Assembly: GCF_003952485.1 (NCBI RefSeq)
Contig: NZ_CP034447.1
Location: 6,090,501-6,154,500 of the forward strand
Direction of reading: 5' to 3'
Length of the DNA stretch: 64,000 bases
Source: Mesorhizobium sp. M1E.F.Ca.ET.045.02.1.1
Lineage (GTDB): Bacteria; Pseudomonadota; Alphaproteobacteria; Rhizobiales; Rhizobiaceae
In this document: positions 962 to 26,899 of the stretch, piece after piece
How the letters are laid out: each line of letters begins with the position of its first letter
How positions within the stretch are numbered: the first letter of the stretch is position 1
Translations under genes and position numbers: made by a program
The notes under the pieces: model-generated
Told to the model about the DNA's origin: nothing
Database searches by the model: none
What the model saw: only the letters and a program-made list of their open reading frames with translations

Positions 962-982
962 CCTTTGAATTTCGTTGCACTG

Positions 983-1010: not shown

Positions 1011-1039
1011 TGCCTTTGGCGGTCGCGGTCAGCTCGCTG

Positions 1040-1064: not shown

Positions 1065-1086
1065 GGATGAAAAAAGGGAGAAAACA

Positions 1087-1530: not shown

Positions 1531-1534
1531 AGCG

Positions 1535-1640: not shown

Positions 1641-1752
1641 CCGCGAGCCCGGGCTTACTTCCTCGGGCAGTCCTGCCCCGTCTGGCTTGTAATGACTGGT
1701 CATCAGCCGGACCTTATGGAATCATCCCGCATTGGAATCGCGGAGAGCGGGC

Positions 1753-2022
1753 ATGGACAAACCTGCCATGGCATCCGTCTTTCGGATGCGGCATGTGCCA
1801 GCAAGCATTTCGGGCGTTCGCAGCCTGGGCCGGGGCCAGGCCGATCCGATCTTCCACTCGAGGCCGCTCGGCGAAGCCATCCGCTTCATCGCCGAGGCCG
1901 ACGGCCAGTATGATCTGAGCGCCGTCGCCATCTCCTACGGCGACCGCTCGACGCCGCCGCTTGGCAGCCGTGAGGCCAAGCAGCTCTGGACCGAATATGG
2001 CGAACGCCTGATGGAGGCTTAG
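1753..2022 (+). CDS. Hypothetical protein, 89 aa
   Basis: Starts at ATG 1753, preceded by GCGGAG. An in-frame TTG at 1732 would add seven residues. The protein is soluble, without signal peptide or membrane segment. The middle part (residues about 35-60) contains the phrases PLGEAIRFIAEADG and YDLSAVAISYGDRS, and the C-terminus is a charged helix. I recognise no family. It is a single gene between the DUF883-like gene and a lipoprotein gene, in a region of small stress-type genes. Confidence 0.55.
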   Translation: MDKPAMASVFRMRHVPASISGVRSLGRGQADPIFHSRPLGEAIRFIAEADGQYDLSAVAISYGDRSTPPLGSREAKQLWTEYGERLMEA

Positions 2023-2167
2023 ACCTCGCCGGCGGCCGGCCCGCGGCTGCTTTCAATGAGAAATCGTCGCAGTGGACCAGGTTATTTACTTGGAACTCAT
2101 CTGAACCGCCTTGTTCGCGTCATGGAATTTTGCTCGGTTCGGGCGCGATTTGATTTCAGGAGGACAG

Positions 2168-2524
2168 ATGCGTTTCGAAATGCGTTTTGGAGCGGTGCTT
2201 ATCGGCGCCTCACTTCTGGCCGGCTGCACCAGCGCCAAAGAAGGCCAATGGAACAGCGCGCAAGCGGCGATGCAGGGCAGCCCTGCGTTCAAGCGAGGAA
2301 TCATCGCCGACTGCACCAAGCAAATCGGATCGCGCCGTTTGGAGGACAGGCAGACCGTGGCGAAGCTGATGAAGGTCGGTATCGCCCGTGTTCCGGACGC
2401 CTTCTGCAATCGGTTCTTCAATGCGTGGGCGAGCGGCCGGCTTAGCTATCGCGACATTCAGGGCATCCATTCCCAGACGGCCGACAACAGCCGCTTCGTG
2501 CGCATCCTGCAAGGCAGGGAATAG
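2168..2524 (+). CDS. Small lipoprotein of unknown function
   Basis: 118 residues. AGGAGGA at 2159-2165 fixes the start at ATG 2168. The N-terminus is a type II signal peptide with lipobox LAGC, and the invariant cysteine near residue 19 would be lipidated. The mature part is mainly helical, with two further cysteines (near 53 and 78) in the phrases IADCTKQIG and DAFCNRFF. The residue at +2 is Thr, which gives no inner-membrane retention signal by the Lol Asp+2 rule, so outer-membrane sorting is likely. No catalytic residues are recognised. Confidence 0.7.
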   Translation: MRFEMRFGAVLIGASLLAGCTSAKEGQWNSAQAAMQGSPAFKRGIIADCTKQIGSRRLEDRQTVAKLMKVGIARVPDAFCNRFFNAWASGRLSYRDIQGIHSQTADNSRFVRILQGRE

Positions 2525-2665
2525 CGGGACCGCCCGGTCCTCGCTGTCATGCCGAAACGGCCCGCCTAGCTAATCGGGACCGAACACGCAGCGGCACCAA
2601 GCATCGCGCCGGATCGGAAACGCCGCTCGCGCGTTTTTGAGGCGAGGTCAATGGGAGGAAGCGCC

Positions 2666-2971
2666 ATGAACGTCGCCAATCTGCAACTCGAGGGCCTGCT
2701 GATGGCCGTCGCCGCAATCAACCATACTCTCGTGCGCAAGGGGGTGCTGACGGTCGAGGAGATCGACATCGCGCTGCGCAAGGCCGAGGCGGTGGAGACC
2801 GGGGAAGACCGGTCCGAAGGCATGTCGGCGTCGAGCCGCGACGCCGTCAACTTCCCGATCCGGCTGCTCGAACTCGCCAACCAGTGCCAGCCCGAGGCGG
2901 ACATGCCGTCCTTCTCGAAGCTGGCGCGCATGGTCGGCCAGATGAAGGAGCCGTACAACGACCAGATGTGA
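2666..2971 (+). CDS. Hypothetical protein, 101 aa
   Basis: The start at 2666 has GGAGGAA at 2654-2660. An in-frame ATG at 2651 overlaps that ribosome site and was rejected. The protein is soluble and helical. Residues about 8-50 (LLMAVAAINHTLVRKGVLTVEEIDIALRK in part) resemble a helical hairpin seen in small rhizobial proteins of unknown role. There is no signal peptide. It is followed by a single family-A repeat and the convergent DoxX gene. Confidence 0.65.
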   Translation: MNVANLQLEGLLMAVAAINHTLVRKGVLTVEEIDIALRKAEAVETGEDRSEGMSASSRDAVNFPIRLLELANQCQPEADMPSFSKLARMVGQMKEPYNDQM

Positions 2972-3007
2972 GGTCAAGGGAAGCGGTTTCGAGGCAAGTC
3001 GGCGCTG

Positions 3008-3057
3008 CCCCTCATCCGCCTTCGGCACCTTCTCCCCGTAAACGGGGAGAAGGGAAG
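3008..3057. repeat. Palindromic repeat, family A (single copy)
   Basis: cccctcatccg followed by ccttctccccg..cggggagaaggg. It is one arm of the repeat that elsewhere in the window occurs as inverted pairs (3561-3748, 26972-27153, 42108-42297, 55665-55852). It lies between two convergent genes and its inner hairpin may terminate either. Confidence 0.7.
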
Positions 3058-3058
3058 T

Positions 3059-3478
3059 TCACGCCCTGCTCGGCCAGCCCTGGCGCACCGCGAGCACGCT
3101 GCCCGCGCCGTGCGCTGCGGCGAAGAGCAGGCCGGCGGCGAACGGGAAATGCGACATGAAGGCGCCGAACTCGGCCTGGTTACCGGCCCAGTGCGACGGG
3201 CCGTGGAAGGCAAAGCCGAGGAAGACGACATAGACCGCGCCGATCAGCGCCAGCGGCGTCATGAAGGCGCCGGTGAGAAAAGCGATCACCAGCAGCGTTT
3301 CGAGGATCGCGGCGCACCAGGCCAGAAACAGCGGGAACGGGAAGCCGGCCGCGGCGATATAGCCGGCGGTCGCCCCCATATCCATGAATTTGAAGGCCAC
3401 CCCCATCGCGAACATGGCGGCGAAGATCAGGCGGGCGATGAGAATGGCGGCGGTCTGCCAGGTCGATTGCGTTTCCAC
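3059..3478 (-). CDS. DoxX-family membrane protein
   Basis: 139 residues starting at GTG 3478, which has GGAGG a few bases upstream. A longer frame from 3514 lacks a ribosome site. Four transmembrane helices are visible, at about 10-30, 45-65, 70-90 and 105-130. The first contains the family pattern LIARLIFAAMFAMGVAFKFMD and the second AWCAAILETLLVIAFLTG. DoxX/DoxD-like proteins are four-helix inner-membrane proteins connected with quinone or thiol redox chemistry, but most members have no proven function. It is a single gene flanked by family-A repeats. Confidence 0.8.
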   Translation of the reverse strand: METQSTWQTAAILIARLIFAAMFAMGVAFKFMDMGATAGYIAAAGFPFPLFLAWCAAILETLLVIAFLTGAFMTPLALIGAVYVVFLGFAFHGPSHWAGNQAEFGAFMSHFPFAAGLLFAAAHGAGSVLAVRQGWPSRA

Positions 3479-3560
3479 GTTTGTCCTCCGGTTGGAGCGG
3501 TCGATATGCTCCAAGGACGAACGAAGGGCGATGGTTCCGACAAGGGGTGGAAATTTTTCT

Positions 3561-3748
3561 CCTTCTCCCCTTGTGGGAGAAGGTGGATCGGCGCGAGCGC
3601 CGAGACGGATGAGGGGTGCCGGAAGAAGGCGACCTAAAAAGGCCTAGCAATTTTAAGCGCTTAGGTCTTCAAAGCCACACTCCGTCCAACACCCCTCATC
3701 CGTCCGAGCTTCGCTCGGACACCTTCTCCCGCAAGGGGAGAAGGGGCG
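3561..3748. repeat. Composite palindromic repeat, family A (inverted pair)
   Basis: The forward arm (ccttctccccttgtggg..gatgagggg) at 3561-3617 and the reverse arm (acccctcatccg..ccttctcccgcaaggggagaagg) at 3686-3748 enclose about 70 unrelated bases. The same inverted arrangement recurs four more times in the window, which suggests a small non-autonomous mobile unit rather than separate palindromes. Confidence 0.75.
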
Positions 3749-3754
3749 CCGGCC

Positions 3755-4510
3755 CTACCCCGCCTTCGCCTGCCGCGGATGGCTGATCGAGTCCCGCACG
3801 GTGCCGTAGGACGCGCCCCAGCGGTCGGTCATGTCGCAGCGTATGTCCCAGAGCTCGGGGAAGAAGCGGTGGCGGGCGCCGCCTTCGAGGATTTCCACCG
3901 GTCGGCCTTTGAGCGACTTCGCGCCGAGCCCGATCGAGCGGTGGATGAGATAAAGGTGGTTGGCGCGGAATTTCTGGAAGAGCTCGTCGAACTCAATCAG
4001 CGCCTCGGCAACGACGTAAGCGTCACCATGGTCGTAGTGGGCGTCGTAGATGTCCTCGACCGAGAGTCCACGGCCGTCGAGATAGGAGTGCTTGAAGGCC
4101 CGCCAGAGGTCCGGCGGCAGGCGCAGGATGAGCTTGAAGCCCGGCGACTCCTGGCCGCTGCCATTGCCGAGCTCGAGGCGTATCTGCTGATACTCTTTGG
4201 GCGACATGGTCTCCAGCAGGTCGAGCTGCGCCGTCATCATGCGCATCAGCCGGTGCACGCGGCCCATGAGCGTGACGATGCGATGCGTATCCTCTCTCTC
4301 CAGATAATCGAGGACGTCGACCAGCGTGTAGGCGATGAGCTTCATCCACAGCTCCTCGACCTGGTGCACGATCTGGAACTGCAACTCGTCGGCGTTGACC
4401 ATCTCGGCGAGCGGCTTCTGGCAGGTGAGCAGTTGGTCGCATTTGAGATAAACGCCGTAGTCGCGCATTTCGGGCGCCTCGATGCGGGCGTGATAGTCCG
4501 ATTTGTCCAT
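3755..4510 (-). CDS. Tryptophan 2,3-dioxygenase-like haem protein
   Basis: 251 residues, start ATG 4510 with GAGGAGGA upstream. It matches the helical tryptophan/indoleamine dioxygenase family. YLKCDQLLTCQ (residues 21-31) opens the fold, FQIVHQVEELWMKLI (45-59) contains the distal-pocket His49, SGQESPGF (118-125) is the substrate-side loop, and His185 in ANHLYLIHRSIG aligns with the proximal haem ligand. The usual glycine-rich GTGGS loop after that ligand is absent and replaced by a longer segment, so this is a divergent member. Known enzymes convert tryptophan to N-formylkynurenine in the cytoplasm. It is transcribed divergently from an Lrp/AsnC regulator across 142 bases, which suggests amino-acid-responsive control. 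The substrate could be another indole. Confidence 0.8.
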   Translation of the reverse strand: MDKSDYHARIEAPEMRDYGVYLKCDQLLTCQKPLAEMVNADELQFQIVHQVEELWMKLIAYTLVDVLDYLEREDTHRIVTLMGRVHRLMRMMTAQLDLLETMSPKEYQQIRLELGNGSGQESPGFKLILRLPPDLWRAFKHSYLDGRGLSVEDIYDAHYDHGDAYVVAEALIEFDELFQKFRANHLYLIHRSIGLGAKSLKGRPVEILEGGARHRFFPELWDIRCDMTDRWGASYGTVRDSISHPRQAKAG

Positions 4511-4652
4511 GGCTCATCCTCCTCGCACGGGCATGTTCGACGGATGCCCAAAGAATAGCGCTTTCGGCTTGAACATTGTTCCTTTCTGTTATCCAATTCG
4601 GCGAAATCGAAGGACAATTCATCGCCTTTTATAGAGTTTTGGAGAACGAAAT

Positions 4653-5120
4653 ATGCTGGACGCCGTCGACCGCAAAATCGTTGCCGCCCTCGAACGCGAC
4701 GCGCGCATCTCCTTCGGCGAACTAGCCGAAGAGGTTGGCCTGAGCAAGACGCCGTGCTGGAAACGGGTGAAGGCACTTGAGGATGCAGGCGCCATCCGCG
4801 GCTATTCCACCCGCATCGATCCGGCGGCGATCGGCTTCGGCATCGAGGCCTTCATCCAGGTGTCGATCGACTTTGAGGTCTCGGACGCCTTCGAGGCGGC
4901 CGTGAAGAAGCATCCGCTGATCCGCCGCTGCTACGCCACGACCGGCGAGGCCGACTATCTGTTGCAGATCGTCACCGTCGACATGAGGGCGCTGGACAGG
5001 ATGCTGCGCGAGGAACTCAGCCGGCTGCCCGGCGTGCGCCGCACCGTGACCTCGATGGCGATGCGCGAGATCAAGGGCGATATCTCGTTCGCCGACGCCG
5101 CGGCGCATGCGCTGACATAA
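4653..5120 (+). CDS. Lrp/AsnC-family transcriptional regulator
   Basis: 155 residues. Residues 1-60 are the winged helix-turn-helix (LDAVDRKIVAALERDARIS, then the recognition helix in LSKTPCWKRVKAL). Residues 65-145 are the AsnC ligand-binding (RAM) domain, with the pattern CYATTGEADYLLQIVTVD. The family binds amino acids and forms dimers and octamers on DNA. It is divergent from the tryptophan-dioxygenase-like gene, so the shared 142-base region probably carries its operator and the ligand may be tryptophan or a related compound (inference). Length is normal for the family. Confidence 0.9.
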   Translation: MLDAVDRKIVAALERDARISFGELAEEVGLSKTPCWKRVKALEDAGAIRGYSTRIDPAAIGFGIEAFIQVSIDFEVSDAFEAAVKKHPLIRRCYATTGEADYLLQIVTVDMRALDRMLREELSRLPGVRRTVTSMAMREIKGDISFADAAAHALT

Positions 5121-7998: not shown

Positions 7999-8037
7999 AT
8001 TGCACAAGCGCGTCGCCCGAATTCGCCGCGACGCGCT

Positions 8038-8448
8038 TTAGTGGCCGTTCAACTCGCCCAGCAAGCGCAGGCCCTCCTCGTACTTGGTCGGGGCGATGCC
8101 CGCCTGAAACGCCTGCCAGAGATTGTCCTTGAGGTCCGCCTTCTTGACGGGCAGCGACAGCGGGTTCGAGGCTGCGCGAAAGATGAAGGCCTGCTCGCTC
8201 TCGTCCATCCTTCTGGTCAGGGCATCGACCGCCACGACCACCCGCAATCCGAAGCCGGCCGCCTCCAGCCTGTTCAGCGACCAGCCTTCGCCTTTCTCGA
8301 TCACGTCGTGCAGGTAAGCGACGGTCTTCTCGTCGTGGGTTTCGACGGCGTCGGCAACGCGCCTTAGATGTTCGATATAGGGTCGGCCGGTCTTGTCCAG
8401 TTGGCCGCGATGGGCCTGCCTGGCGATCTTCGCTGCCCGGTGGAGCAT
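8038..8448 (-). CDS. Small HD-domain hydrolase (RelA/SpoT N-terminal type)
   Basis: 136 residues from ATG 8448, which has GAGGTGAAC upstream. It consists of a single HD domain with the metal-binding pattern of (p)ppGpp hydrolases: AHRGQLDKTGRPYIEHLRRVA (first two histidines), AYLHDVIEKG (the HD pair) and KADLKDN (last aspartate). There is no synthetase or ACT/TGS domain, so it resembles a small alarmone hydrolase or a general HD phosphohydrolase. A GGAAC-N16-TGTT element on its strand (8606 to 8582) could place it under EcfG control. The substrate is not shown. Confidence 0.75.
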   Translation of the reverse strand: MLHRAAKIARQAHRGQLDKTGRPYIEHLRRVADAVETHDEKTVAYLHDVIEKGEGWSLNRLEAAGFGLRVVVAVDALTRRMDESEQAFIFRAASNPLSLPVKKADLKDNLWQAFQAGIAPTKYEEGLRLLGELNGH

Positions 8449-8581
8449 GTTCACCTCGATCAACCTGTAAGCCCGCCTCGGCGGGGAGAGGGCCGAGACG
8501 GGCTGGATCGGGCTCTGGATACCCGGTCCGACAGCGCACATTTCGCGCGGATGCTGGGACTGCGCGCCATGGTGCAAGAGG

Positions 8582-8606
8582 AACATCAGCGACGCCTAAA
8601 TGTTCC
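8582..8606 (-). promoter_or_regulatory. Candidate EcfG promoter, minus strand
   Basis: On the minus strand GGAAC (8606-8602), a 16-base spacer and TGTT (8585-8582), one mismatch from the EcfG -10. It lies about 135 bases before the HD-hydrolase start and is back-to-back with the perfect EcfG promoter of the csbD-like gene. Confidence 0.35.
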
Positions 8607-8641
8607 CTTCCAAATCCCGATTCCGGCGTTCGGCAAAGGCA

Positions 8642-8666
8642 GGAACCTCCGTGCAGCGCCGCCGTT
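8642..8666 (+). promoter_or_regulatory. EcfG-type promoter, perfect consensus
   Basis: GGAAC (8642-8646), 16-base spacer, CGTT (8663-8666), an exact match to the EcfG consensus, 33 bases before the ATG of the CsbD-family gene. Confidence 0.65.
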
Positions 8667-8698
8667 AGCTCCTTGTGCAAAACGAAGGAGTTCGCGCC

Positions 8699-8902
8699 AT
8701 GGATTGGAACCGCGTCGAAGGAAACTGGAAGCAGGTCAAAGGCAAGGTCAAGGAACAGTGGGGCAAGCTCACCGACGACGACCTCGACCGCATCGCCGGC
8801 AAGCGCGACCAGCTCGAAGGCAAGATCCAGGAACGCTACGGCATCGAGAAGGACCGTATCCGTCGCGACATCGACGACTGGGCGAGGCGCCAAGGCTGGT
8901 AG
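8699..8902 (+). CDS. CsbD-family stress protein
   Basis: 67 residues with AAGGAG before ATG 8699. The whole protein is the CsbD fold: MDWNRVEGNWKQVKGKVKE at the N-terminus and the typical KLTDDDLDRIAGKRDQLEGK helix hairpin. CsbD-like proteins are small, charged and abundant under general stress; CsbD of Bacillus is in the sigma-B regulon, but the biochemical role is not known. The perfect EcfG promoter just upstream gives the equivalent regulation here. Confidence 0.92.
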   Translation: MDWNRVEGNWKQVKGKVKEQWGKLTDDDLDRIAGKRDQLEGKIQERYGIEKDRIRRDIDDWARRQGW

Positions 8903-8989
8903 TGTCCGCCGACCGGAAAGCAAGGGATTTTGATTTCCGGACAATGAGGCTATGTTAGCTGACTAAGTGATTCATGGCACGGTGAACCG

Positions 8990-9175
8990 ATGGCCAAGAA
9001 GAAATCGAGAACGGCCTTGTCCGTTTTCGCCACAGCCTCGCGATCAGAGGCCTCCGAAGCGATTTATTTTGCCCGCAAATGCGGCCTCACCCCTGACGAA
9101 GCCCTGCGGATAATGCGCGAGGCGCATGTGACGTCAGGGTTCAAGTCGCCAGACAACGGAAAACAGAAGCGCTGA
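8990..9175 (+). CDS. Small DUF3606-like protein
   Basis: 61 residues. The N-terminus is basic (MAKKKSRTAL) and the core EAIYFARKCGLTPDEALRIMREAH is the helix-turn-helix-like pattern of small rhizobial proteins grouped as DUF3606. The function of the group is unknown. It follows the csbD-like gene by 87 bases on the same strand; no clear promoter of its own was seen. Confidence 0.6.
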   Translation: MAKKKSRTALSVFATASRSEASEAIYFARKCGLTPDEALRIMREAHVTSGFKSPDNGKQKR

Positions 9176-9248
9176 GCCCGCAAGGGGGCCGATCGCGCCA
9201 CCGGCAGGACGTATCCGCCGGCTGGCGGCTACCTTGGCATTGCGGAAT

Positions 9249-9273
9249 GGAACTTCGGTCACTGCTGGCTGTT
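9249..9273 (+). promoter_or_regulatory. Candidate EcfG promoter
   Basis: GGAAC (9249-9253), 16-base spacer, TGTT (9270-9273), one mismatch in the -10. The start codon of the next membrane-protein gene is 24 bases further on. Confidence 0.4.
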
Positions 9274-9296
9274 CCACTTGAAAGGCGGGCATCAGC

Positions 9297-9599
9297 ATGA
9301 CCAGATCGTCGCGGCATCTGCTCAAGGGCATCGGCTATACAATCTCGACGGCAAGCGTGATCCTGCTGGCGACCGTCAGTTGGGAGAGCGCATCGAAAAG
9401 TCCGCTGTTGATTGCCTGCCTGCTCGGCGGCGCCGCCACGTCGATCGTCGGCATGTTTTGCCGCTGGCTTTCCTACGAGATCGAAAAGCGTGGGGACGAG
9501 CGCCAGGGCAGCGTGACCGAGAAAAGGCCAAGCCTCGGATCGCCGCCAAGCAGCGTCACCTCCGTCTCCGCCGCCGGAACCCCGAGACCAGCACCGTGA
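9297..9599 (+). CDS. Small two-helix membrane protein, unknown function
   Basis: 100 residues. Two transmembrane segments are visible, about residues 9-28 (IGYTISTASVILLATVSW) and 36-57 (PLLIACLLGGAATSIVGMFC), followed by a polar Ser/Pro-rich tail. No strong ribosome site precedes ATG 9297. A candidate EcfG promoter 24 bases upstream would leave only a very short leader. The tail may continue past the real end if the frame has drifted. No family is recognised. Confidence 0.5.
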   Translation: MTRSSRHLLKGIGYTISTASVILLATVSWESASKSPLLIACLLGGAATSIVGMFCRWLSYEIEKRGDERQGSVTEKRPSLGSPPSSVTSVSAAGTPRPAP

Positions 9600-17439: not shown

Positions 17440-19560
17440 TTATTTTATGCCGCCCACTCGGGCATGCGGTCTTTCAAACGGCGCCGCGCCACCGGCCGCC
17501 CGCGCCACGATCGCCTCGAGCGGCTCGGGCCTGTGCAGGAAATAGCCCTGGCCATAGGCGACCCCCATGCCCATGAGGATCTCCAACGCGCTCTTTTCCT
17601 CGATCTTCTCGGCCACCACGGCGCTGCCCATGCTTCTGGCAATGCCGGCGATCGCCGAGACGATCTCGCGGTCGAAGCGGCTTTCGGCGATGTGCTCGAC
17701 GAAGGAGCCGTCGATCTTGATGACGTCGATGGGGAAGCGCCTCAGATATTCGAAGGAGCTCATGCCGGCGCCGAAATCGTCGAGGCTGACGCGGCAGCGG
17801 CGCAACCTGGCCTTGCGCACGAATTCTTCCGCCGCGTCGAAATTGGTGACGGCGGCGGTCTCGGTGATCTCGAAGCCGATGCCGGATGGCGGCGCGCCGC
17901 TCCCGGCGATCGCGGCATCGACGAAGTCCCAGAGCTGCGGATCGGAGAGCGTCTGCGCCGACAGGTTGAAGCCGAGCGAGATGGCGCCGGAGCGCATCGC
18001 CTTGCCGTGGCGCGCCAGTGCCGCGCGGATGATCCAGCGGTCGAGCCGGGCGGCAAGGCCGAAGCGTTCGGCCACCGGCATGAACTCACCCGGCGGGATC
18101 AGCTTGCCATTGCGGCCTTCGAGCCGCGCCAGCACCTCGACATGGCGGTTCTCTTCCCAGGGCCTGCCCAGGCGATGGATCTCCTGGCCGAACAGCTTCA
18201 GCCGGCCGTCCTCCATGGCGTCGACCAGGTCGGCGGCGAGCCGCGCGGCGTTGAGGCCGCCCGAGCCGGAGGCCGTCTCGGCCGAGAACACCGCAAAGCG
18301 GTCGCGCCCGCCGGCCTTGGCGGCGTAGCAGGCGTCGTCGGCGCAGGCGAGCGCGTCTGCGACGGTGATGTTGCGGTCATACACGAAGGCGATACCGATG
18401 CTGGCAGCGAGCCGACGCGAGGTGACGGCCGGGCCGAGATCGGCGTCGCGCACGGCGGCGAGCACCGCACGCGCGAGCCGCTCGGCGCAGGCGTCGTCGC
18501 AATTCGGCACCAGCAGCGCGAACTCGTCGCCGCCGAGGCGCGCGGCGTGCGCCGAGGGCGGCAGGCTGGCGACGATGCCTGCCGCGACACTCTTCAGCGC
18601 GAGGTCGCCGGCGGCGTGGCCGGCATAGTCGTTGAGCGCCTTGAAGTAGTCGAGGTCGACATAGAACACGGCAAGCGGCAGCCGGTCTGCCGCGCCGATG
18701 TTTTCGGCCAGCAGGCGGTCGAAGGCCGAGCGGTTCAACAATCCGGTCAACGCATCGTGGCGCGCCGCATAGGCAAGCTCCTCGGCGCGCTTCTTTTCGT
18801 CGGTGATGTCGCGCACGGTGCCGAGGATCTGGCCGGCCGAGCCGACGCCGGCGATGAAGCGCACCAGCGACTCGACATGACGGATCTCGCCGTCGCGTCT
18901 GATGATGCGATATTGCGTGGCGGTGACGCTCTCCGAGCCCGGCGGCGGCAGGTGCGCGCGCTCGGTGGCCTCCTTGTCGTCCGGGTGGAGATAGGTGTGC
19001 CAGAGGCCGGCCGTCACCTCGTCGGTATCGCTGACAAGACCGAAGATCTCCCTGGTGCGCGCGTCCCAATAACTCTTGTTGGTGCCGATATCGTAATGCC
19101 AGATGCCGGTGCCGCTGGCGGCGAGCGCAAGGCGGAAACGCACATTGATCTGCTCGAGCGCGGCTTCGGCCTCTTTCTGCCTGGTGATGTCGGTCTGCAC
19201 GCCCATCAGGCGCAGCGGCTTGCCTTCGGCCTCGCGCTCGACGATGCCGCCGCGGTCGAGCACCCAGACCCAGTGGCCGTCCTTGTGCTTCAGGCGCAGT
19301 TCTGTATCGATGGAATCGACGAGGCCGGCGATGTGGCGGTCGCCGCTCGCCAGCGCCCGTTCGCGGTCGTCGGGATGGGTGAGCTTCAGCCAGAGATCGG
19401 ACGTGTTGGCGAGCTCGCCCTCGGCATAGCCCAGCATCCTCCACCAGGTCGGCGAATAGTAGCAATCGCCGGTCGCGAGGTTCCAGTCCCACAGGCCGAG
19501 TTGGGCGCGGTCGAGCGCCAGCGCCCAGAATTCACCCTTACGTTTCTCGTCGTCCGCCAT
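17440..19560 (-). CDS. PAS-PAS-GGDEF-EAL cyclic-di-GMP signalling protein
   Basis: 706 residues. Two PAS/PAC units lie at about 15-130 and 135-255, with PAC phrases DITRQKEAEAAL and VRDITDEKKRAEE. The GGDEF domain (about 265-425) has RLGGDEFALLVPN intact, but no RxxD inhibitory site before it. The EAL domain (about 435-690) has EVLARLE in place of EAL, while FEITET, LDDFGAG, VIKIDGSFV and AEKIEE keep the metal- and substrate-binding residues. It could therefore both make and degrade c-di-GMP; which activity dominates cannot be read. No membrane segment is seen, so it is a cytoplasmic sensor responding to a PAS ligand. Confidence 0.92.
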   Translation of the reverse strand: MADDEKRKGEFWALALDRAQLGLWDWNLATGDCYYSPTWWRMLGYAEGELANTSDLWLKLTHPDDRERALASGDRHIAGLVDSIDTELRLKHKDGHWVWVLDRGGIVEREAEGKPLRLMGVQTDITRQKEAEAALEQINVRFRLALAASGTGIWHYDIGTNKSYWDARTREIFGLVSDTDEVTAGLWHTYLHPDDKEATERAHLPPPGSESVTATQYRIIRRDGEIRHVESLVRFIAGVGSAGQILGTVRDITDEKKRAEELAYAARHDALTGLLNRSAFDRLLAENIGAADRLPLAVFYVDLDYFKALNDYAGHAAGDLALKSVAAGIVASLPPSAHAARLGGDEFALLVPNCDDACAERLARAVLAAVRDADLGPAVTSRRLAASIGIAFVYDRNITVADALACADDACYAAKAGGRDRFAVFSAETASGSGGLNAARLAADLVDAMEDGRLKLFGQEIHRLGRPWEENRHVEVLARLEGRNGKLIPPGEFMPVAERFGLAARLDRWIIRAALARHGKAMRSGAISLGFNLSAQTLSDPQLWDFVDAAIAGSGAPPSGIGFEITETAAVTNFDAAEEFVRKARLRRCRVSLDDFGAGMSSFEYLRRFPIDVIKIDGSFVEHIAESRFDREIVSAIAGIARSMGSAVVAEKIEEKSALEILMGMGVAYGQGYFLHRPEPLEAIVARAAGGAAPFERPHARVGGIK

Positions 19561-19744: not shown

Positions 19745-20441
19745 ATGGTTTGGCGAGAGACTGGACTCATGGACGAGCGGCTTCGTTTTGTTGCGGAATG
19801 AGCGGACGTTCGAGGAGAATGGCCTGCCGGATCGGTTCAGAAGCGACAACGGCTCGCCATTTGCGTCGGTCGGCCTCACCGGGCTGACGCCGCTTAGCGT
19901 GCGTTTCATCAAGCTCGGCATCGTGCTGGAGCGCATCCAGCCGGGCAAGCCGCAGCAGAACGGCTGCCATGAGCGCTTCCACCTGACCATGCTGCCGCTG
20001 GCCAAGGCGCCGGAGGCCGACAGGGCGGCGCAGGCTCGGGCCTTCGAGGCTTTCCGGCGCGAGTACAATGAGGAGCGCCCGCACGAGGCGCTGGGCATGG
20101 ACACGCCGGCACAGCATTACCGCCCCTCGACCCGCGCCATGCCGAAGACGATACCGGAGCCGGACTATCCGGCCGAAGCTGCGGTGCGCAGCGTGCGCCA
20201 AAACGGCGAGATCAAGTGGAACGGCGACTTCATCTACGTCTCAAAGACATTGGCGGGTGAAGCGGTTGCCGCAACCGAGACCGAGAACGGGCAATGGGCG
20301 CTCCACTTCTATACCCATCCGCTCGGCTTCATCGACGGCAGACACAAGAAACTGGTCCGCCGCAGTGCCCTTCAACCCGACCAGACGGCACTGCGGCGGA
20401 CAGCAACTCAGGGGGAAAACTGTAACCTATGTATCCGGTTC
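19745..20441 (+). pseudogene. IS481-family transposase remnant
   Basis: Two fragments of one gene. Codons from 19745 give 18 residues typical of the N-terminus, ending at TGA 19799. From 19788 another frame gives the C-terminal catalytic half with second Asp (RSDNG) and Glu (NGCHERFH), then PHEALGMDTPAQHYRPS and IKWNGDFIYVSKTLAGE, which are characteristic of this transposase family. An internal deletion of several hundred bases plus a frame change explains the junction. The second frame has no stop before the element's right end. Confidence 0.65.
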
Positions 20442-20470
20442 AAAGTGTTACCCATCTATCGGCTGGACAC
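19745..20470 (+). mobile_element. Internally deleted IS481-family element
   Basis: The left part keeps the transposase N-terminus (ATG 19745, MVWRETGLMDERLRFVA). It is joined in another frame, near 19796, to the second half of the catalytic core (RSDNGSPFAS, then QQNGCHERFH). The right part ends in a gtgttaccc..ggctggaca sequence near 20447-20470 of the kind found at the ends of these elements. The first catalytic Asp lies in the deleted part, so the element cannot move by itself. Exact ends are uncertain. Confidence 0.6.
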
Positions 20471-20479
20471 TCGGCGAAG

Positions 20480-20655
20480 CCGAGACGGAGAGGGGGACAG
20501 CGCCCTGCGAAGCCCCCTCTCCGGCCGCTTTGCGGCCACCTCTCCCCCGCTTTCAGCGGAGGCGAGGAATCCAAGCCCAAAGATGCCGGCGGAACAGCGC
20601 CCCTTCTGCCCTGCCGGGCATCTCCTCACGGGGGGAGATCGGCAGCTTCACCGCC
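20480..20655. repeat. Intergenic repeat block next to the IS481 remnant
   Basis: 20480-20575 carries ccctctccggccgctttgcggccacctctccccc, a palindromic repeat of another type. 20611-20655 carries a family-B arm (ctgccctgccgggcatctcc..ggggggagatcgg). No gene is visible here. Confidence 0.5.
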
Positions 20656-20664
20656 TGGCGTTTC

Positions 20665-20889
20665 TTACTGACTCGGCGCAATCGCGTGTTCGCACGACAC
20701 TTTCGGGTTCATGTCGGCGAAGGTGCCGGTCGGGTTGCTCTTCCAGGCCCAGACATGCAGTTCGTAGAACTCGCCGAGACCGTAGCGGTTGGGCGCGCTG
20801 TTGAAGTTGAACAGCTGGCCATCGAGCGATGCCGGACCCTTCGAGGTGATGTATTCGACCGCCACCAGCTTCAGCGTGCCGTCGGCCAT
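20665..20889 (-). pseudogene. C-terminal fragment of an unknown protein
   Basis: About 74 codons reading GTLKLVAVEYITSKG, then NRYGLGEFYELHVWAWKSNP and FADMNPKVSCEHA, well-formed and with GC-rich wobble positions. This looks like the C-terminal end of a conserved small protein whose N-terminus is missing. The frame is preceded in phase by a TAG and by the N-terminal fragment of a different gene (20893-21015). The ATG at 20889 has no ribosome site of its own. It is most likely a leftover of a deletion. Confidence 0.5.
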
Positions 20890-20892
20890 CGG

Positions 20893-21015
20893 CTAGACGC
20901 CCGACTGGTCGTTCAAGATGCCGATCTTGACCTTGCCGTCTGAGATTTCGCCAGCCGCCGCCGGCATTGCAGATGCCGCAATGAGCGCGGCCGAGACGAG
21001 ATAGGGTGCTCTCAC
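20893..21015 (-). pseudogene. N-terminal fragment of an ABC-transporter substrate-binding protein
   Basis: GTG 21015 with GGAAGGA upstream opens a signal peptide (PYLVSAALIAASAMPAAAG) followed by EISDGKVKIGILNDQSGV, the standard start of periplasmic binding proteins of the branched-chain amino-acid/urea type (type 1 fold). The frame stops at TAG 20893-20895 after 40 codons, exactly where the fragment of the other protein begins. About 90 percent of the gene is missing and no permease genes are nearby. Confidence 0.6.
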
Positions 21016-21250
21016 TGGTGGTCCTTCCCTCGTGGCCAACCACGTCAAACACGGCGGGCCTCGCAATGGTTCAACAGTTTCGTCCGGATTTTTGGATTTT
21101 GGGCTCGATCCCGCCTGCCACTCCTCTTCTCGCGAGACCGCACCACCGCGTGCCTTGGGTGCACGGGCGCGGAGCCTCGCATCACACTTCGTAGGCCGAG
21201 AATGCTATTTTCGTAGCAAGGCGTATGGGCAGGTAGGACGCTCGAGCCGT

Positions 21251-21934
21251 TCACCACGGCAGCTTCATGCCATCGCGGAAGAAGCCGCCCGTCGGACCGT
21301 CGTCCGGCAGGGTCGCGGCCCATACGATGCCGGCCGCCCCTGGCGCGACTGGGCGGCTGCCGGGCCCGCCCATGTCGGTCTCCATCCAGTCCGGGCTGAT
21401 GGCGTTGACCAGGACGCCCGCGTCGCGCAGCTCGGCCGCGAGAATTCGGGTGAGCGCACTGAGCGTCGCCCTGCCGGTCGAATAGGCCGGCGAGCCAGCC
21501 TCGGGCGAAACGATGACCAGCCGGCCATGACCGGAGGCGCTGAGCAGCGGCGCGAAGGCGAACGCCACCCGCCAGGCGCCGACGACATAGCTCTCGAAGG
21601 CCTTGCTGCCCACCGTCCGGTGGGGATTCAGCGCTCGCGCGGACAACTCGTAGTGGATGGCGGCGTTGTTGACGAGCACGTCGAGCCGACCGAATCGGCG
21701 CTCCACCTCGGCTGCAGCAAGGGCTGGCCCATCGGGCGCGGCGACATCCAGCGCGATGGCCTCGACATTGCCGCCGGGTTTCTTCGCCGCCGCCTCGCCC
21801 TTGGCGAGGTCGCGCGCGCCGATGAGCACGGTGAAGCCAAGTCCGGCGAGCTGCCGGCCGGTCTCCAGGGCAATGCCGCGATTGGCGCCGGTGACGAGCG
21901 CCACCTTGCCGGAATGATTTGCTGTGCTGGTCAT
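21251..21934 (-). CDS. SDR-family protein with altered active site
   Basis: 227 residues, ATG 21934. It has the classical SDR fold: ALVTGANRGIALETGRQLA (12-30), NNAA and GRLVIVSPEAGS. The end, TLPDDGPTGGFFRDG, is typical of carbonyl-reductase-like SDRs. Three key sites differ from the family pattern: the third glycine of TGxxxGIG is Ala, the lysine of YxxxK is Arg (YSTGR), and CPGW/SPGW is SPDW. It may be inactive or have an unusual activity. The gene is intact and well coding-like. It follows the cyclase-ferredoxin gene on the same strand by 82 bases. Confidence 0.8.
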   Translation of the reverse strand: MTSTANHSGKVALVTGANRGIALETGRQLAGLGFTVLIGARDLAKGEAAAKKPGGNVEAIALDVAAPDGPALAAAEVERRFGRLDVLVNNAAIHYELSARALNPHRTVGSKAFESYVVGAWRVAFAFAPLLSASGHGRLVIVSPEAGSPAYSTGRATLSALTRILAAELRDAGVLVNAISPDWMETDMGGPGSRPVAPGAAGIVWAATLPDDGPTGGFFRDGMKLPW

Positions 21935-22016
21935 TGCTCCCGCTGGTCAAAATCTGACACTTGGTCGGACCGACAACAGACTCGCGGGAGTTTTTTGGAC
22001 GATCCGGTCGGCACGT

Positions 22017-23390
22017 TCAATCGAGACCGACCCAGATGTAGCCATCCTCCTCGCGGCACGGAATGAGACGCAACGGAGCCCGGTTCTTCGAAATATCGCC
22101 GAGGACCTCCATGCCGGCCGAAGTTCCATCCTCGTTGAGCGCCTCGCACCACTTTACGATTTCGCCTGTATCCAGATCGAATCCGGAGTGATGCCAGCGA
22201 CACACCAGCGTGCCATCCTCGTCTACAGTGCTCGCCTGTCGTGCGTGGCCGTTGGTCCGCGAGGTGCTTTCGAAGAACGGCAATTTCAGATGCGGGCAGG
22301 CATTGTTAAAGGCATGGACGCGCCCGCCCCTGCGCAAAATCACGACGTAAAGCGCTTGGAACTCGATGACTTTGTAGTCGCCGTCCTTCAGTTCGCCCGT
22401 CGCGACCGTCCGGTGCCACGTCTTGCCGCCCAGTTGCATAGTCTCGCGCGCGCCTTTTTCGTTCAACCGGCGCTCGGCTTCAACCTTCAGCTTCCTTATC
22501 TCGTACAGCGTAATTCGGTCGGAGGTACCGCGCAAACGCACCCGAATGAAATCGGATATTTCAACCTCGTCCTTGACCCGTTCATAGAGCGTCTCCGAAA
22601 TCAGGAGGCGGGTTCCGGCCTCCTTGTTGGCTGTTTCGACGCGGCTCGCCACATTGACCGCATCGCCGATAGCCGTCAGGCGCTCGTTTCCGGGTGATCC
22701 GACCGAACCGATCACCGCTTCGCCCAGATGCAAACCGACGCGAATATCGAAGTCGATGCCGTACATCGAGGCAAAAAACGGCTTCAGCCGATCGACCGTG
22801 GCAAGGGTCTGTAGGGCCGCATTGACCGCGCGCACCGGCGCATCGTCTTGGCCGTTCACGCCAAATATCGCCATAAGCCCGTCGCCGACGAACTTGTCGA
22901 TGTAGCCGTTGTTGAGCTCGATGACTTCGGCGACCTGAGTGAAATAGCGATTGAGCAGATACATGACATCGTAAGGCGTCAGCGTTTCGGAGAAGTGGGT
23001 GAATCCGGCTACGTCGCTGAAGAAAATGACGACCGACTTCAGCTCGCCCGCACTGGTGGACCTGTGCGGCAGCAGCTGACTGGTCATTCGCAGGTCGGTC
23101 TCGTCGAGTACGAGCCTGCGGAAGGTGATGTCGGAGGCAGGTCTGAGCTGGCATGCCAGGCGTACGTTGTTGCCAAGCCCCAGCCGCTCTACGAGCGTGC
23201 GCTCCAGCGCTGTGCGCTCCGGGCAGCCGTCTGCACCGTCGAGAATCCAGATCCGGCAGGTTGAGCATTTGGCCTTACCGCCACAAGCGCAGGCGATCGG
23301 GACATCTGCCCGGCGAGCGGCTTCAAGGACAGATTCCCCGAGCGCCGATTTGATCGATATGTCGTCGGGCAGCGATAGCAACGTAGGCAT
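22017..23390 (-). CDS. Three-domain redox protein: 2Fe-2S ferredoxin, class III nucleotide cyclase, Rieske
   Basis: 457 residues. Residues 1-95 are a plant/adrenodoxin-type ferredoxin domain with Cys36-x5-Cys42-x2-Cys45 and Cys80. Residues 115-300 are a class III cyclase: metal-binding Asp126 (FFSDVAGFT) and Asp170 (FVGDG), purine-site Lys166 and Thr239, and transition-state Asn246 and Arg250 (GDAVNVASR), all intact, which points to ATP as substrate. Residues 320-457 are a Rieske domain with Cys365-Pro-His367 and Cys397-x2-His400. The cyclase could thus be gated at both ends by iron-sulfur clusters. There is no membrane segment, so it is cytoplasmic. Ferredoxin-cyclase fusions are known in rhizobia; I do not know the Rieske addition as a described arrangement. 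Confidence 0.9.
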   Translation of the reverse strand: MPTLLSLPDDISIKSALGESVLEAARRADVPIACACGGKAKCSTCRIWILDGADGCPERTALERTLVERLGLGNNVRLACQLRPASDITFRRLVLDETDLRMTSQLLPHRSTSAGELKSVVIFFSDVAGFTHFSETLTPYDVMYLLNRYFTQVAEVIELNNGYIDKFVGDGLMAIFGVNGQDDAPVRAVNAALQTLATVDRLKPFFASMYGIDFDIRVGLHLGEAVIGSVGSPGNERLTAIGDAVNVASRVETANKEAGTRLLISETLYERVKDEVEISDFIRVRLRGTSDRITLYEIRKLKVEAERRLNEKGARETMQLGGKTWHRTVATGELKDGDYKVIEFQALYVVILRRGGRVHAFNNACPHLKLPFFESTSRTNGHARQASTVDEDGTLVCRWHHSGFDLDTGEIVKWCEALNEDGTSAGMEVLGDISKNRAPLRLIPCREEDGYIWVGLD

Positions 23391-23579
23391 CGGAACCGAT
23401 CTTCCTGTACGAGTGGCGCCAAACGCTGGTAGTCAATAAAAGGTCTATCAGCCGGACACCGTTTCAGCCTCGTTCGGACGACATTAGCCCAGCAATGGCT
23501 TGGATGCCATCGTCGAGTCCGATAGTCCGCCCCGGGTCGGTCGAAAGTCGCGCTCCGCATCGGGTACCAAGTGTCCGGC

Positions 23580-24176
23580 CTACTTCTTCTGCGGGTGGAT
23601 CGTCTCGCCGCGCTTCAGCATGTCGACGAAGCTTGCGATCTTCTTCTTGCGCCCGGCCTCGGTCTTCATGTTGTGGGTGCGGAAGGCGAGCGCGAAGCGG
23701 TTCTGGGCGGAGAGCTTTGCCAGCATTTCCTTCGCTTTCGGCTCAGCGTCGATCGCCGCCTGCAGGTCGGGCGGGATCGTCATCTCCTTGGACCCGCCAT
23801 AGGCGCGGTCCCAGCGCCCGTCGGCCTTGGCCGCCTCGACCTCGCGCAGGCCATGCTTCGTCATGCGGCCCTGCTCGGTCAGGCGCGCGACATTGTCGAT
23901 GTTGATCCTGCTCCAGATGCTCTTTTTGCCACGCGGCGTGTAGCGCTGCAGAAAGCTCTTCTCGTCGAGCGACTTGCGCACCGCGTCGATCCAGCCGAAG
24001 CAGAGCACAACGTCGATCGCCTCCTTTGGCGTGATCGAGGGAAGACCCGAACCTACCTTATGGATCTTGATCCAGACCTCGCTTTCGCCGGCGTGGTTTT
24101 GGCCGAGCCAGGCATAGAAACTCTCCGCGTCGGGGAACTCGCGGATCTTCTCCGGATCGACCTTGATCGGGGCCAT
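23580..24176 (-). CDS. YdeI/OmpD-associated-family protein
   Basis: 198 residues. Two adjacent ATGs (24179 and 24176) follow GAGG; the second has the better spacing. The family pattern is clear: FPDAESFYAWLGQNHA, then EVWIKIHKVGSG, EAIDVVLCFGWIDAVRKSLDE, FLQRYTPRGKKSIWS and a basic C-terminal helix bundle. Members are linked in different bacteria to resistance to bacteriocins or polymyxin and to heavy metals; no enzyme activity is established. A single gene. Confidence 0.88.
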   Translation of the reverse strand: MAPIKVDPEKIREFPDAESFYAWLGQNHAGESEVWIKIHKVGSGLPSITPKEAIDVVLCFGWIDAVRKSLDEKSFLQRYTPRGKKSIWSRINIDNVARLTEQGRMTKHGLREVEAAKADGRWDRAYGGSKEMTIPPDLQAAIDAEPKAKEMLAKLSAQNRFALAFRTHNMKTEAGRKKKIASFVDMLKRGETIHPQKK

Positions 24177-24362
24177 CATCACCTCGTCTGCTTGTCTCGA
24201 CCGACAGTTTGAACGATTCCGCCGCTGCTGTAGCGATGGTTGGTGCCAGTTTCTGTCAGCAGATCCGAGGATGCCATCGGCCTTTCCGATGACACTATCG
24301 GTTTCTTCCGTTTCCGCGTCGAGCATCCGCCTGCCACATCACTATCCATGCAAAGGAAAGGC

Positions 24363-25091
24363 ATGGACATGGACAATCGAAAAATCCTGATCGTCGGCGG
24401 CAGTTCTGGCATGGGATTGGCGCTGGCCAGGCGCTGCCTCGACGAAGGCGCCAGCGTCATCATCGCCGGGCGCGGCGAAGCGAAGCTGAGCAAGGCCCGC
24501 GATCAACTCGGCCGCCCGGCCACTTTGGAGGCGGCGGCGGTCGACATCAGCCGCGAGGACGAGGTCGCGGCGCTGTTCGCGCGCATCGGCAGGCTCGACC
24601 ATATCGTCAGCACGGCCGCCGCGATCGAAGGCGCCTACCGGCTGTTGCCCGAGATCGAGCTTTCAGCCGCGCAAAAGATGGTGGAAAGCAAGGTCTACGG
24701 GCCGCTGCTGCTTGCCAAGCATGGCGCGCCAAAACTGTCGCCGGGCGGCTCGCTCACCTTCGTCTCCGGCATCGCCGCCAACCGGCCGGCGGCGCGCGGC
24801 GCGGTCGTCGCGGCCGTCAACGCAGCGCTCGAAGGGCTGGTGCGGGCCCTGGCCGTCGAGCTTGCGCCGATCCGCGTCAATGCCGTCTCGCCCGGCTGGG
24901 TCGACACGCCGATCTGGGAGTTCGTCGCCGGCGAGAAAAAGGACGAGACGCTCGCAGCTATGGCCAAGCGCCTGCCGGCCGGGCGGGTCGGGCGGGCGGA
25001 AGACATTGCGGACGCGCTTCGCTTCCTGATGGGCAATGGTTTCACGACGGGAACGACCCTGCATGTGGAGGGCGGCCACCGGCTGATCTGA
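24363..25091 (+). CDS. SDR-family oxidoreductase without the catalytic tyrosine motif
   Basis: 242 residues with AAAGGAAA before ATG 24363. The coenzyme-binding motif VGGSSGMGLALARRC and the later SPGWVDTPIWE are present. In the active-site region the usual YxxxK is replaced by RGAVVAAVNAALEGL. This is the mark of a known SDR subgroup that lacks the standard tyrosine; its reaction is undefined. The C-terminus GTTLHVEGGHRLI is normal. It converges with the LysR gene and overlaps it by 50 bases. The two may be functionally linked. Confidence 0.82.
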   Translation: MDMDNRKILIVGGSSGMGLALARRCLDEGASVIIAGRGEAKLSKARDQLGRPATLEAAAVDISREDEVAALFARIGRLDHIVSTAAAIEGAYRLLPEIELSAAQKMVESKVYGPLLLAKHGAPKLSPGGSLTFVSGIAANRPAARGAVVAAVNAALEGLVRALAVELAPIRVNAVSPGWVDTPIWEFVAGEKKDETLAAMAKRLPAGRVGRAEDIADALRFLMGNGFTTGTTLHVEGGHRLI

Positions 25092-25983
25092 CCGGCGCAA
25101 AGCCCTCATCCATCGCCGCGAGCAGCGCCTTGAGCGTCGGCGGCTGGACGCGCCGGCGGCGCCAGATCATGACGAGGCCCGCGGAACGGACCGGGCCGGG
25201 CCAGGCGACCTCCGCCACCCCGCCGCGATCGAGCACGGCCGCGACCGCCAGGCGCGGCACGATGCCGAAGCCGGCGCCGGCTGCCACCAGCCCGGCGATG
25301 GCGTCGATGCTGCCGACCTCGGCCGCGAGCCTCGGCCCGCCGAGGCCCGCCTCGGTGAAAGCTCTGTCGACCATGGCGCGGTAGACGCATCCGGTTTCGG
25401 TGGCGACGAAGCGTTTTTCGGCAAGCTCCGCCAGATCGACCTCCGTCCTGTTCTCGCCCGGCGGCGCGATCAGCACCAGCGGCTCGGCCGCGACGACGCG
25501 TCTGGCGAAGCGCTCGTCCGATTCGCTCGCGCCAGAACGGTCGAAGCAGAAGGCGACATCGATCTCGCCGTCGCCGAGCCTGCGCAGCAACTCGCCGCTG
25601 CCGGCGATCTTCAGCTTGATGTCGATGTCGGGATGAACGGCATGGAAGTCGGCCAGCCAGCCGGCAAGCCTTGCGGAGGCAATCGTCTCCAGCGCGCCGA
25701 TCGCAAGCCGGCCGGCCGTCGCGCTCCTGGTGGCATCGATGACGGCGCGCGCGTCGTCGGCGAGCGACAGCAATTCCTCGGCATAGGGTTTCAACGCCTC
25801 GCCGGCCGGTGTCAGCTCCAGCCCTCGCCGAGAGCGCATGAAGAGGCTGGCGCCAAGCTCGGCCTCCAGCGCCTGGATCTGGTCGCTGACGCTCGACTGC
25901 GCGAGATTGACCTCCACCGCGGCGCGGGTGACGTTGCGCGTGCGCGCAACCGCGAGAAATGTCTTCAGCAACCTTGGATGCAT
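25042..25983 (-). CDS. LysR-family transcriptional regulator
   Basis: 313 residues. The N-terminal winged HTH (1-60) reads LLKTFLAVARTRNVTRAAVEV, then LAQSSVSDQIQALEAELG. The effector domain covers 90-295 (RLAIGALETIASARLAGWL; and GAGFGIVPRL). It regulates an unknown target; the convergent SDR gene at 24363 overlaps its 3' end by 50 bases and is a plausible but unproven target. The last 20 residues are a Pro/Gly-rich tail that may be non-conserved. Confidence 0.9.
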   Translation of the reverse strand: MHPRLLKTFLAVARTRNVTRAAVEVNLAQSSVSDQIQALEAELGASLFMRSRRGLELTPAGEALKPYAEELLSLADDARAVIDATRSATAGRLAIGALETIASARLAGWLADFHAVHPDIDIKLKIAGSGELLRRLGDGEIDVAFCFDRSGASESDERFARRVVAAEPLVLIAPPGENRTEVDLAELAEKRFVATETGCVYRAMVDRAFTEAGLGGPRLAAEVGSIDAIAGLVAAGAGFGIVPRLAVAAVLDRGGVAEVAWPGPVRSAGLVMIWRRRRVQPPTLKALLAAMDEGFAPVRSAGGRPPHAGSFPS

Positions 25984-25996
25984 CGGGCGGGCGGCG

Positions 25997-26899
25997 CTAC
26001 TGCAGCTGCGGCTTCTTGAGGAAGGAGTTGCGGTCTGCGGATTTTACCCTGAGCCAGGTCTCGCGGCCGTCGCGCACCACGCGCAACGGGATCTCGGCGC
26101 CTGCCGGGTTCTGCCAGAGCTTGCGATAGAAGTCGGCGAGACCGTCGACCTCACCGTCGCGCACGTCGGAAATGATGTCGCCCTGACGCAGGCCTGCCTT
26201 TGCCGCTGGACCGCCTTCGGCGACGCTCATCACCACCACCATGCCGTTCGACTCGGCCGAGAAAGCGCCGAGCCACGGGCGCGGTGGCCGGGCCAACTGG
26301 CCACGCTTCACCAAGTCGTCGAGGATCGGCGTCAGAAGGTCGATCGGCACGATCATGTTGATGTCGGCGACCTCGCCGGCGCGGCTCATCTGCAGGCGCA
26401 GCGAGCCGACGCCGAGCAGCTTGCCGTCGCGGTCGAACAGCGCGGCGCCGCCCCAGGACGGGTGCGCCGGCGCGGTGAAGATCGCCTCGTCGATGAGATA
26501 TTCCCAGTAGCCGGCGAATTCCTGCTTGGTGACGATGTGGGCATCGACCTGCTGGCCGATGCCGTCGGCAAGCGTCACCGCGTCGCCGATATTGGCCTTC
26601 CTGGCGTTGCCGAAGGCGACCGCCGGCAGGTTGAGCGGCGACAGCGCCTGCACCAGGCCGAAGCCGGTCTCCTGATCGTAGGCCAGCGCATGCGCGGCGA
26701 CCACGCGGCCGTCCTGGTCGGTGAGCCACACCTCGTCGGCCTCGGTGATCAGATAGCCGATGGTGAGCACCAGCCCGTTGTCGCGGATCACCACGCCGCT
26801 GCCCTCGCGGCGTGTGCCCAGCGCATTGGCGGTGAAGGCGTCGTCCGGAACCGTGGCGCGCACGGACACGACGGAGCGCGAGACTTTTTCGATGGTCAT
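25997..26899 (-). CDS. HtrA/DegP-like protein with lost catalytic triad, plus PDZ domain
   Basis: 300 residues. It follows the trypsin-like fold of HtrA proteases: GSGVVIRDNGLVLT (33-46) and the LLGVGSLRLQ strand after the active-site loop, and then a PDZ domain from about 200 (GPAAKAGLRQGDIIS). Each triad position is altered: TNNHV is TIGYLI (His to Tyr), TDLAV is TGFGL (Asp to Gly), and GNSGG is PSWGG (Ser to Trp). There is no signal peptide, so it is probably cytoplasmic. It may be a chaperone or scaffold rather than a protease. A single gene, 13 bases after the LysR start. Confidence 0.8.
   Translation of the reverse strand: MTIEKVSRSVVSVRATVPDDAFTANALGTRREGSGVVIRDNGLVLTIGYLITEADEVWLTDQDGRVVAAHALAYDQETGFGLVQALSPLNLPAVAFGNARKANIGDAVTLADGIGQQVDAHIVTKQEFAGYWEYLIDEAIFTAPAHPSWGGAALFDRDGKLLGVGSLRLQMSRAGEVADINMIVPIDLLTPILDDLVKRGQLARPPRPWLGAFSAESNGMVVVMSVAEGGPAAKAGLRQGDIISDVRDGEVDGLADFYRKLWQNPAGAEIPLRVVRDGRETWLRVKSADRNSFLKKPQLQ

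Follow-up and report, generated by a model that had tools for sequence, protein, structure and literature searches.

Can one soluble polypeptide convert the redox state of its own iron-sulfur clusters into a cyclic nucleotide signal? This question is raised by a gene in a 64,000-nucleotide stretch of the genome of Mesorhizobium sp. M1E.F.Ca.ET.045.02.1.1 (the window), for which a sequence-only reading had claimed a 457-residue protein joining a 2Fe-2S ferredoxin (Fer2) domain, a class III nucleotide cyclase and a Rieske domain, and had proposed that it turns redox state or oxygen level directly into cAMP. We consider the odds slightly better than even (roughly 55%) that the protein works as a soluble class III cyclase homodimer, controlled by the redox state of two [2Fe-2S] clusters of its own. 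In this reading we infer that the clusters are bound, that the protein is a dimer, that the product is cAMP, that redox state gates the activity in a given direction, and that the two clusters exchange electrons.

Domains and residues of the window protein

The minus-strand open frame begins with an ATG at 23390, its stop codon ends at 22017, and its translation has 457 aa (Table 1). Three Pfam matches, all above the curated cut-offs, bear out the proposed domain order: Fer2 at residues 10-84 (E 2.5e-8), Guanylate_cyc (PF00211) at residues 116-296 (E 1.4e-21, 77.4 bits against a cut-off of 21.9), and Rieske at residues 325-414 (E 5.6e-11). All 14 residues that the sequence-only reading had named as cluster ligands or catalytic residues stand at those positions in the translation and in the alignment. 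A simple hydropathy count gave no hydrophobic membrane segment for the window protein or for the other 58 rows of the family alignment described below.

Table 1. Positions in the window of the cyclase gene, its parts and its upstream region
Feature	Position	Strand	Evidence
Fer2-class III cyclase-Rieske CDS, 457 aa, predicted soluble	22017..23390	-	open frame, Pfam, 58 further full-length relatives, hydropathy
Adrenodoxin/Isc-type [2Fe-2S] domain, residues 10-84, predicted ligands C36, C42, C45, C80	23139..23363	-	Pfam Fer2, fdx_isc below cut-off, PDB 1i7h
Ferredoxin-cyclase linker, residues 85-115, with R91, R92, D96, D99	23046..23138	-	conservation
Class III cyclase catalytic domain, residues 116-296; D126, K166, D170, T239, N246, R250	22503..23045	-	Pfam Guanylate_cyc, Foldseek, conservation
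Rieske domain, residues 322-457; predicted ligands C365, H367, C397, H400	22020..22427	-	
Conserved upstream region, putative own promoter region	23391..23530	-	alignment of 200 bases upstream, window gene and L041-L049

The ligand spacing of the Fer2 part is C-x5-C-x2-C-x34-C, the part matches ferredoxin 1i7h in the PDB, and its best NCBIfam model is fdx_isc (TIGR02007; E 9e-11), at 41.9 bits against a cut-off of 132.1. By sequence, the domain is thus a relative of Isc ferredoxin and not IscFdx itself; it shares the ligand pattern of Isc ferredoxin and adrenodoxin but sits within a signalling protein.

Class III cyclases use two metal-binding Asp and a transition-state Asn/Arg, and in adenylate cyclases a pair of Lys and Asp/Thr selects the substrate, the Lys recognising adenine in canonical enzymes. 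The window protein has the Asp pair (D126, D170), the transition-state residues (N246, R250) and, as substrate-selecting pair, K166 and T239; because of this K/T pair it is most likely an adenylate cyclase.

The full-length AlphaFold2 model had a pTM of 0.51 and low confidence over residues 95-112, and therefore domain contacts were not read from it. All 50 listed Foldseek matches of the full model were cyclases, the best ones class III, so the Rieske part was folded alone. Modelled in this way, the C-terminal domain is predicted to have a Rieske fold, that of a dioxygenase-type Rieske ferredoxin. The Rieske ferredoxins of naphthalene, toluene, biphenyl, nitrotoluene and carbazole dioxygenases have the same fold type as this model, but the window domain is fused to a cyclase, and its loop between the ligand pairs (29 residues; 17 in the family member L093) is longer than theirs.

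Residue conservation and selection

Conservation was read from 59 full-length rows, namely 58 loci and the window protein (P0001). The peptide patterns KCSTCR[VI]W and AFNNACPH had found 62 loci, from which we dropped L050 (frame breaks off in the Rieske part), L088 and L096 (contig end), and L102 (a Rieske-like match alone in a 142-aa frame). Since these patterns contain C42, C45, C365 and H367, the sample was to some extent selected for these four residues; the remaining ligands (C36, C80, C397, H400) and the catalytic residues lie outside the patterns.

Twelve positions were identical in all 59 rows: C42, C45 and C80 of the ferredoxin, D126, D170, T239, N246 and R250 of the cyclase, and the Rieske ligand pairs CxH (C365, H367) and CxxH (C397, H400). 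C36 was kept in 58 of 59 rows, with Arg in L058, a metagenome bin. Residue 166 (window 22893-22895) varied: Lys in 40 rows, Asn in 13, Ser in 2, Leu in 2, Arg in 1 and Asp in 1. The claim that all catalytic residues are present therefore stands for the window protein and fails for the family, in which 19 of 59 rows, Ensifer and Rhizobium among them, have lost Lys166 while T239 is kept throughout. Because of this replacement, some family members may not use ATP or may not be fully active.

Compared with eight close orthologues, dN/dS was 0.12-0.19 for the whole gene, 0.08-0.14 for the cyclase part and 0.17-0.38 for the Rieske part, and at the sequence level all three parts of the window protein are under purifying selection. 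These data bear on whether the protein could be an electron carrier or shuttle with the cyclase domain as a degraded scaffold, which might be suggested by the 19 of 59 rows with another residue in place of Lys166. In dioxygenase systems, Fer2 and Rieske domains indeed pass electrons to each other. However, the five invariant catalytic residues and the low dN/dS of the cyclase part argue against a degraded scaffold, Pfam matched neither an oxygenase nor a reductase domain in the protein, and the neighbour comparison turned up no common partner gene; we regard the shuttle as highly improbable.

Distribution of the triple-domain family

The 58 other full-length proteins have the same domain order and are 37-98% identical to the window protein, the closest named relative being L041 of Mesorhizobium (98%). 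In a relatives search of 101 genomes, the window genome included, near-full-length matches occurred in 14: the window genome, genomes of the same genus (four at 93-95% identity, eight at 57-59%), and a single genome from a different family at 52%. In the remaining 17 of the 31 matching genomes the match was confined to the first 308 residues. Two Rhizobium plasmids also carry full-length copies. Named holders are Mesorhizobium, Rhizobium, Ensifer/Sinorhizobium, Phyllobacterium, Stappia, Hongsoonwoonella, Ruegeria, Leisingera, Afifellaceae and Rhodobacteraceae; further holders are some gammaproteobacterial bins, one Gemmatimonadetes bin and two Bacteriovoracales records, where bins may be misassigned.

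Wider samples, in which up to four candidates per genome were scored so that counts are lower bounds, gave matches at E <= 1e-100 in at least 6 of 397 genomes of the order, all six with the Rieske part (the window genome and L104-L108). In the class sample at least 49 of 385 genomes matched, and in the phylum sample at least 25 of 398; among these matches, only the window genome and G705 in the class, and the window genome and G100 in the phylum, extended into the Rieske part.

Judged from these sequences, the family is conserved and not a one-off, and it is patchy and uncommon; it would be either old or moved between lineages. A chance or assembly fusion was rejected on the basis of the 14 of 101 genomes, the two plasmids and the 58 of 62 loci with full-length genes. 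In Mesorhizobium loti UFLA 01-765 the frame of L050 (around 8001-9370) ends within the Rieske part, as a pseudogene or an assembly error. No second such protein was found in the window genome, where the gene itself was the one match at E <= 1e-30, and a motif look at 8 of the 20 cyclase loci of this genome found Fer2- and Rieske-like motifs only in the window gene.

Relatives with other layouts

The Fer2-cyclase core also occurs in three further layouts. The first is a group of membrane Fer2-cyclases (24 rows, 518-642 aa) with 2-7 hydrophobic stretches each by a simple hydropathy count, all N-terminal to Fer2 in the seven rows with positions given. Fer2 lies directly before the cyclase in 5 of 5 members scanned with Pfam, the four Fer2 Cys are present in 24 of 24 rows, and histidines recur in the five members inspected. 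Over the Fer2-cyclase part, these proteins were 33-39% identical to the window protein in the 101-genome search.

Previous studies, as far as the excerpted texts go, reported that CyaC of S. meliloti is redox-regulated (PMC10463352) and described a group, cluster 1 of the eLife 2016 study, in which a cytochrome b-like six-transmembrane (6TM) anchor is followed by a ferredoxin and a class IIIb cyclase (PMC4821796). The 24 membrane relatives fit both descriptions. Ferredoxin-cyclase fusions were, as the sequence-only reading had stated, already known. Like the CyaC type (6TM diheme anchor, Fer2, cyclase), the window protein has Fer2 directly before a class III cyclase, a likeness drawn through the sequences of the membrane relatives and the excerpted published description of CyaC. 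Unlike this type, it has by hydropathy no membrane anchor with four heme-ligating histidines, and unlike the membrane Fer2-cyclases it has another linker and a C-terminal Rieske domain. Since CyaC-type kin join a [2Fe-2S] domain to the same catalytic domain and CyaC is described as redox-responsive in the excerpt, the proposed conversion of redox state into a cyclic nucleotide is plausible.

The second layout comprises nine Rieske-less soluble Fer2-cyclases of 302-333 aa, except L118 (396 aa, start uncertain); one of them is on a Hymenobacter plasmid. Eight have no hydrophobic stretch and L118 has one. These proteins (for example L125 of Hymenobacter volaticus and L119-L124) have the same Fer2-linker-cyclase core as the window protein but differ in lacking a Rieske motif, and the four that were scanned gave no Rieske match in Pfam. 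We know of no characterised member. The third layout is a 503-aa form with two CDGSH matches followed by Fer2, cyclase and Rieske (L110:1273-2781 and L130:1279-2787, both on the plus strand). Of ten genomes in one alphaproteobacterial family, two, which belong to the same genus, have this form. With two CDGSH, one Fer2 and one Rieske domain, a single signalling chain would hold up to four Fe-S sites; both proteins have Asn in place of Lys166.

The linker between ferredoxin and cyclase separates the soluble from the membrane proteins. R91, R92, D96 and D99 are present in 59 of 59 triple proteins, and R92, D96 and D99 also in both CDGSH and all nine Rieske-less soluble rows, against 4, 0 and 1 of the 24 membrane rows, respectively. 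Therefore, we presume that the coupling of ferredoxin and cyclase differs between the two sides. An extra cysteine, C56 (window 23223-23225), lies between C45 and C80 in 57/59 triple, 2/2 CDGSH, 5/9 Rieske-less soluble and 0/24 membrane proteins.

A tree of 71 sequences of the Fer2-cyclase core (36 triple proteins out of the 59, 2 CDGSH, 9 Rieske-less and 24 membrane proteins; membrane-type L027, with a doubtful frame, and partial L038 left out) was rooted with the membrane group as chosen outgroup. The 24 membrane proteins form one side of a 100/100 branch. The Rieske-bearing rows (36 and 2 CDGSH) cluster at 98/98 with one exception, the Rieske-less L109 (Fer2 and cyclase), which falls inside, beside L093 (97/88). 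Several branches are long, including L093 and L109, and the composition of L099, L100, L110 and L130 is odd. The presence and absence of the Rieske domain takes two changes on it, one gain and one loss or two gains; probably the soluble proteins gained a dioxygenase-type Rieske ferredoxin once.

Since L109, which has no Rieske domain, lies inside the clade, this domain is not needed in every member. L109 and the other eight Rieske-less proteins would suit a protein in which only the ferredoxin domain regulates, while the Rieske domain has a structural role, helps dimerisation or offers a docking site to a partner. The four Rieske ligands are, however, kept in all 59 rows although the identity of the Rieske part drops to 22-29% in the two most distant ones, which fits a cluster in use, and we find regulation by the ferredoxin alone distinctly unlikely.

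Gene surroundings

Neighbours were compared at the window and at 40 of the 62 loci, with genes called by codon score (poor in the A+T-rich L099 and L100; one of the 41 loci gave no call for the cyclase gene itself) and with clusters defined as at least three loci. On the same strand, the window gene has an OmdA/YdeI-domain protein gene upstream and a short-chain dehydrogenase gene downstream, and these two stay near the cyclase only in the window, L042 and L047, which share a block in place. Other clusters were generic kinds at scattered distances, such as an ABC ATPase (11 loci), the LysR type, a response regulator and dehydrogenases. Two Afifellaceae bins, L053 and L101, have ribosomal protein/RimM-like genes 7-8 kb upstream and further neighbours in common; in L082 such genes lie 8 kb away on the other side. 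Across distant lineages, none of the neighbours kept its position in the 41 loci, and no operon or partner gene was found in this comparison. Sensor and output are therefore likely in one chain. The cyclase gene would be a unit of its own.

Ten neighbour genes, taken from the adjoining genes of 22 loci, were scanned with Pfam; nine matched nine different kinds and one had no match. In Ruegeria marisrubri, the cyclase gene is followed after about 80-90 bases by the gene of an Fe-S assembly protein (PF01883, L057:9463-9822).

This last gene matters for the main rival to reversible redox control, a sensor of the presence or integrity of the clusters (oxygen, nitric oxide, oxidants, iron or Fe-S supply), in which cluster loss changes cyclase activity. 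Two [2Fe-2S] domains of different ligation would be a plausible damage gauge, the retention of C56 in the triple proteins and its absence from the membrane relatives would agree with it, and so would the Ruegeria neighbour. However, that gene is the only one among the ten that points to Fe-S supply, and Fer2 and Rieske domains are normally stable electron carriers. We therefore hold a sensor of cluster loss to be rather unlikely.

About 140 bases upstream of the gene are kept in 10 close Mesorhizobium-type loci, and this region (Table 1) is, from its sequence, probably the gene's own promoter region. No FixK/FNR-like box was found near the gene, and two one-mismatch matches elsewhere in the window were at chance level; an oxygen-regulated promoter was set aside accordingly. 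Rfam gave no match at 20000-26000.

Proposed mechanism and significance

Returning to reversible redox control, we propose that the N-terminal adrenodoxin-type cluster would be the main switch, tied to the catalytic domain by the short conserved linker, as is presumed by analogy for the [2Fe-2S] domain that CyaC-type membrane cyclases have in this position. As electron input or second sensor, the Rieske domain at the C-terminus would replace the diheme membrane anchor of CyaC, and with a Rieske domain in place of this anchor the input would be cytosolic redox state or oxygen and not the quinone pool. If CyaC is a guide, the oxidised form may be the more active; this direction is borrowed from one described relative with a different input module. 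The product, as judged from the K/T pair, would most likely be cAMP.

Further, we tentatively suggest, as a somewhat doubtful extension, that these proteins form a separate class of soluble cyclic-nucleotide sensors with several Fe-S clusters of different kinds in one chain (Fer2 and Rieske, with two CDGSH in addition in two relatives). Clusters of different potential might pass electrons along within the chain, or might give a redox reading in graded steps, and in this way set cAMP output with no partner protein involved.

Bacterial cyclases that read light or quinone redox state are known. If the proposal is true, a soluble chain with two different Fe-S clusters would read cytosolic redox state or oxygen directly, and, as a small protein for which no partner gene was found, it would be a simple system for how the redox state of a cluster moves a class III cyclase. 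It could also be an engineering part, the redox-controlled counterpart of light-activated cyclases. Oxygen and redox change sharply in rhizobial nodules, and the protein is a candidate for a specific input into rhizobial cAMP signalling.

In open-licence papers, no description was found of a Fer2-cyclase-Rieske protein or of the form with CDGSH added, which agrees with the sequence-only reading, which knew of no described cyclase with iron-sulfur clusters of two types at both ends, and the words "ferredoxin" and "Rieske" do not occur in the excerpts of PMC1183210 and PMC13259868. While ferredoxin-cyclase fusions and redox-regulated cyclases are already known, the soluble form with Rieske and the form that also has CDGSH motifs are, within these papers, apparently new.

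Genome context

The window genome, a single 7.35-Mb contig, contains 20 cyclase loci as well as 15 loci with cNMP-binding domains, and cyclic nucleotide signalling is therefore well developed in it. About 2.5 kb from the cyclase gene, the window encodes a PAS-GGDEF-EAL protein, a c-di-GMP enzyme (17440-19560, minus strand), and an integrase core domain (rve_3) at 19788-20804 on the plus strand marks an insertion sequence remnant or copy. On three Rhizobium and Sinorhizobium plasmids (L126, L127 and L128, around 900-4790), there is a one-base overlap between the membrane Fer2-cyclase gene and the gene of an FkbM methyltransferase, and glycosyltransferase and polysaccharide deacetylase genes lie close by, which hints at a link between the membrane Fer2-cyclase and surface polysaccharide.
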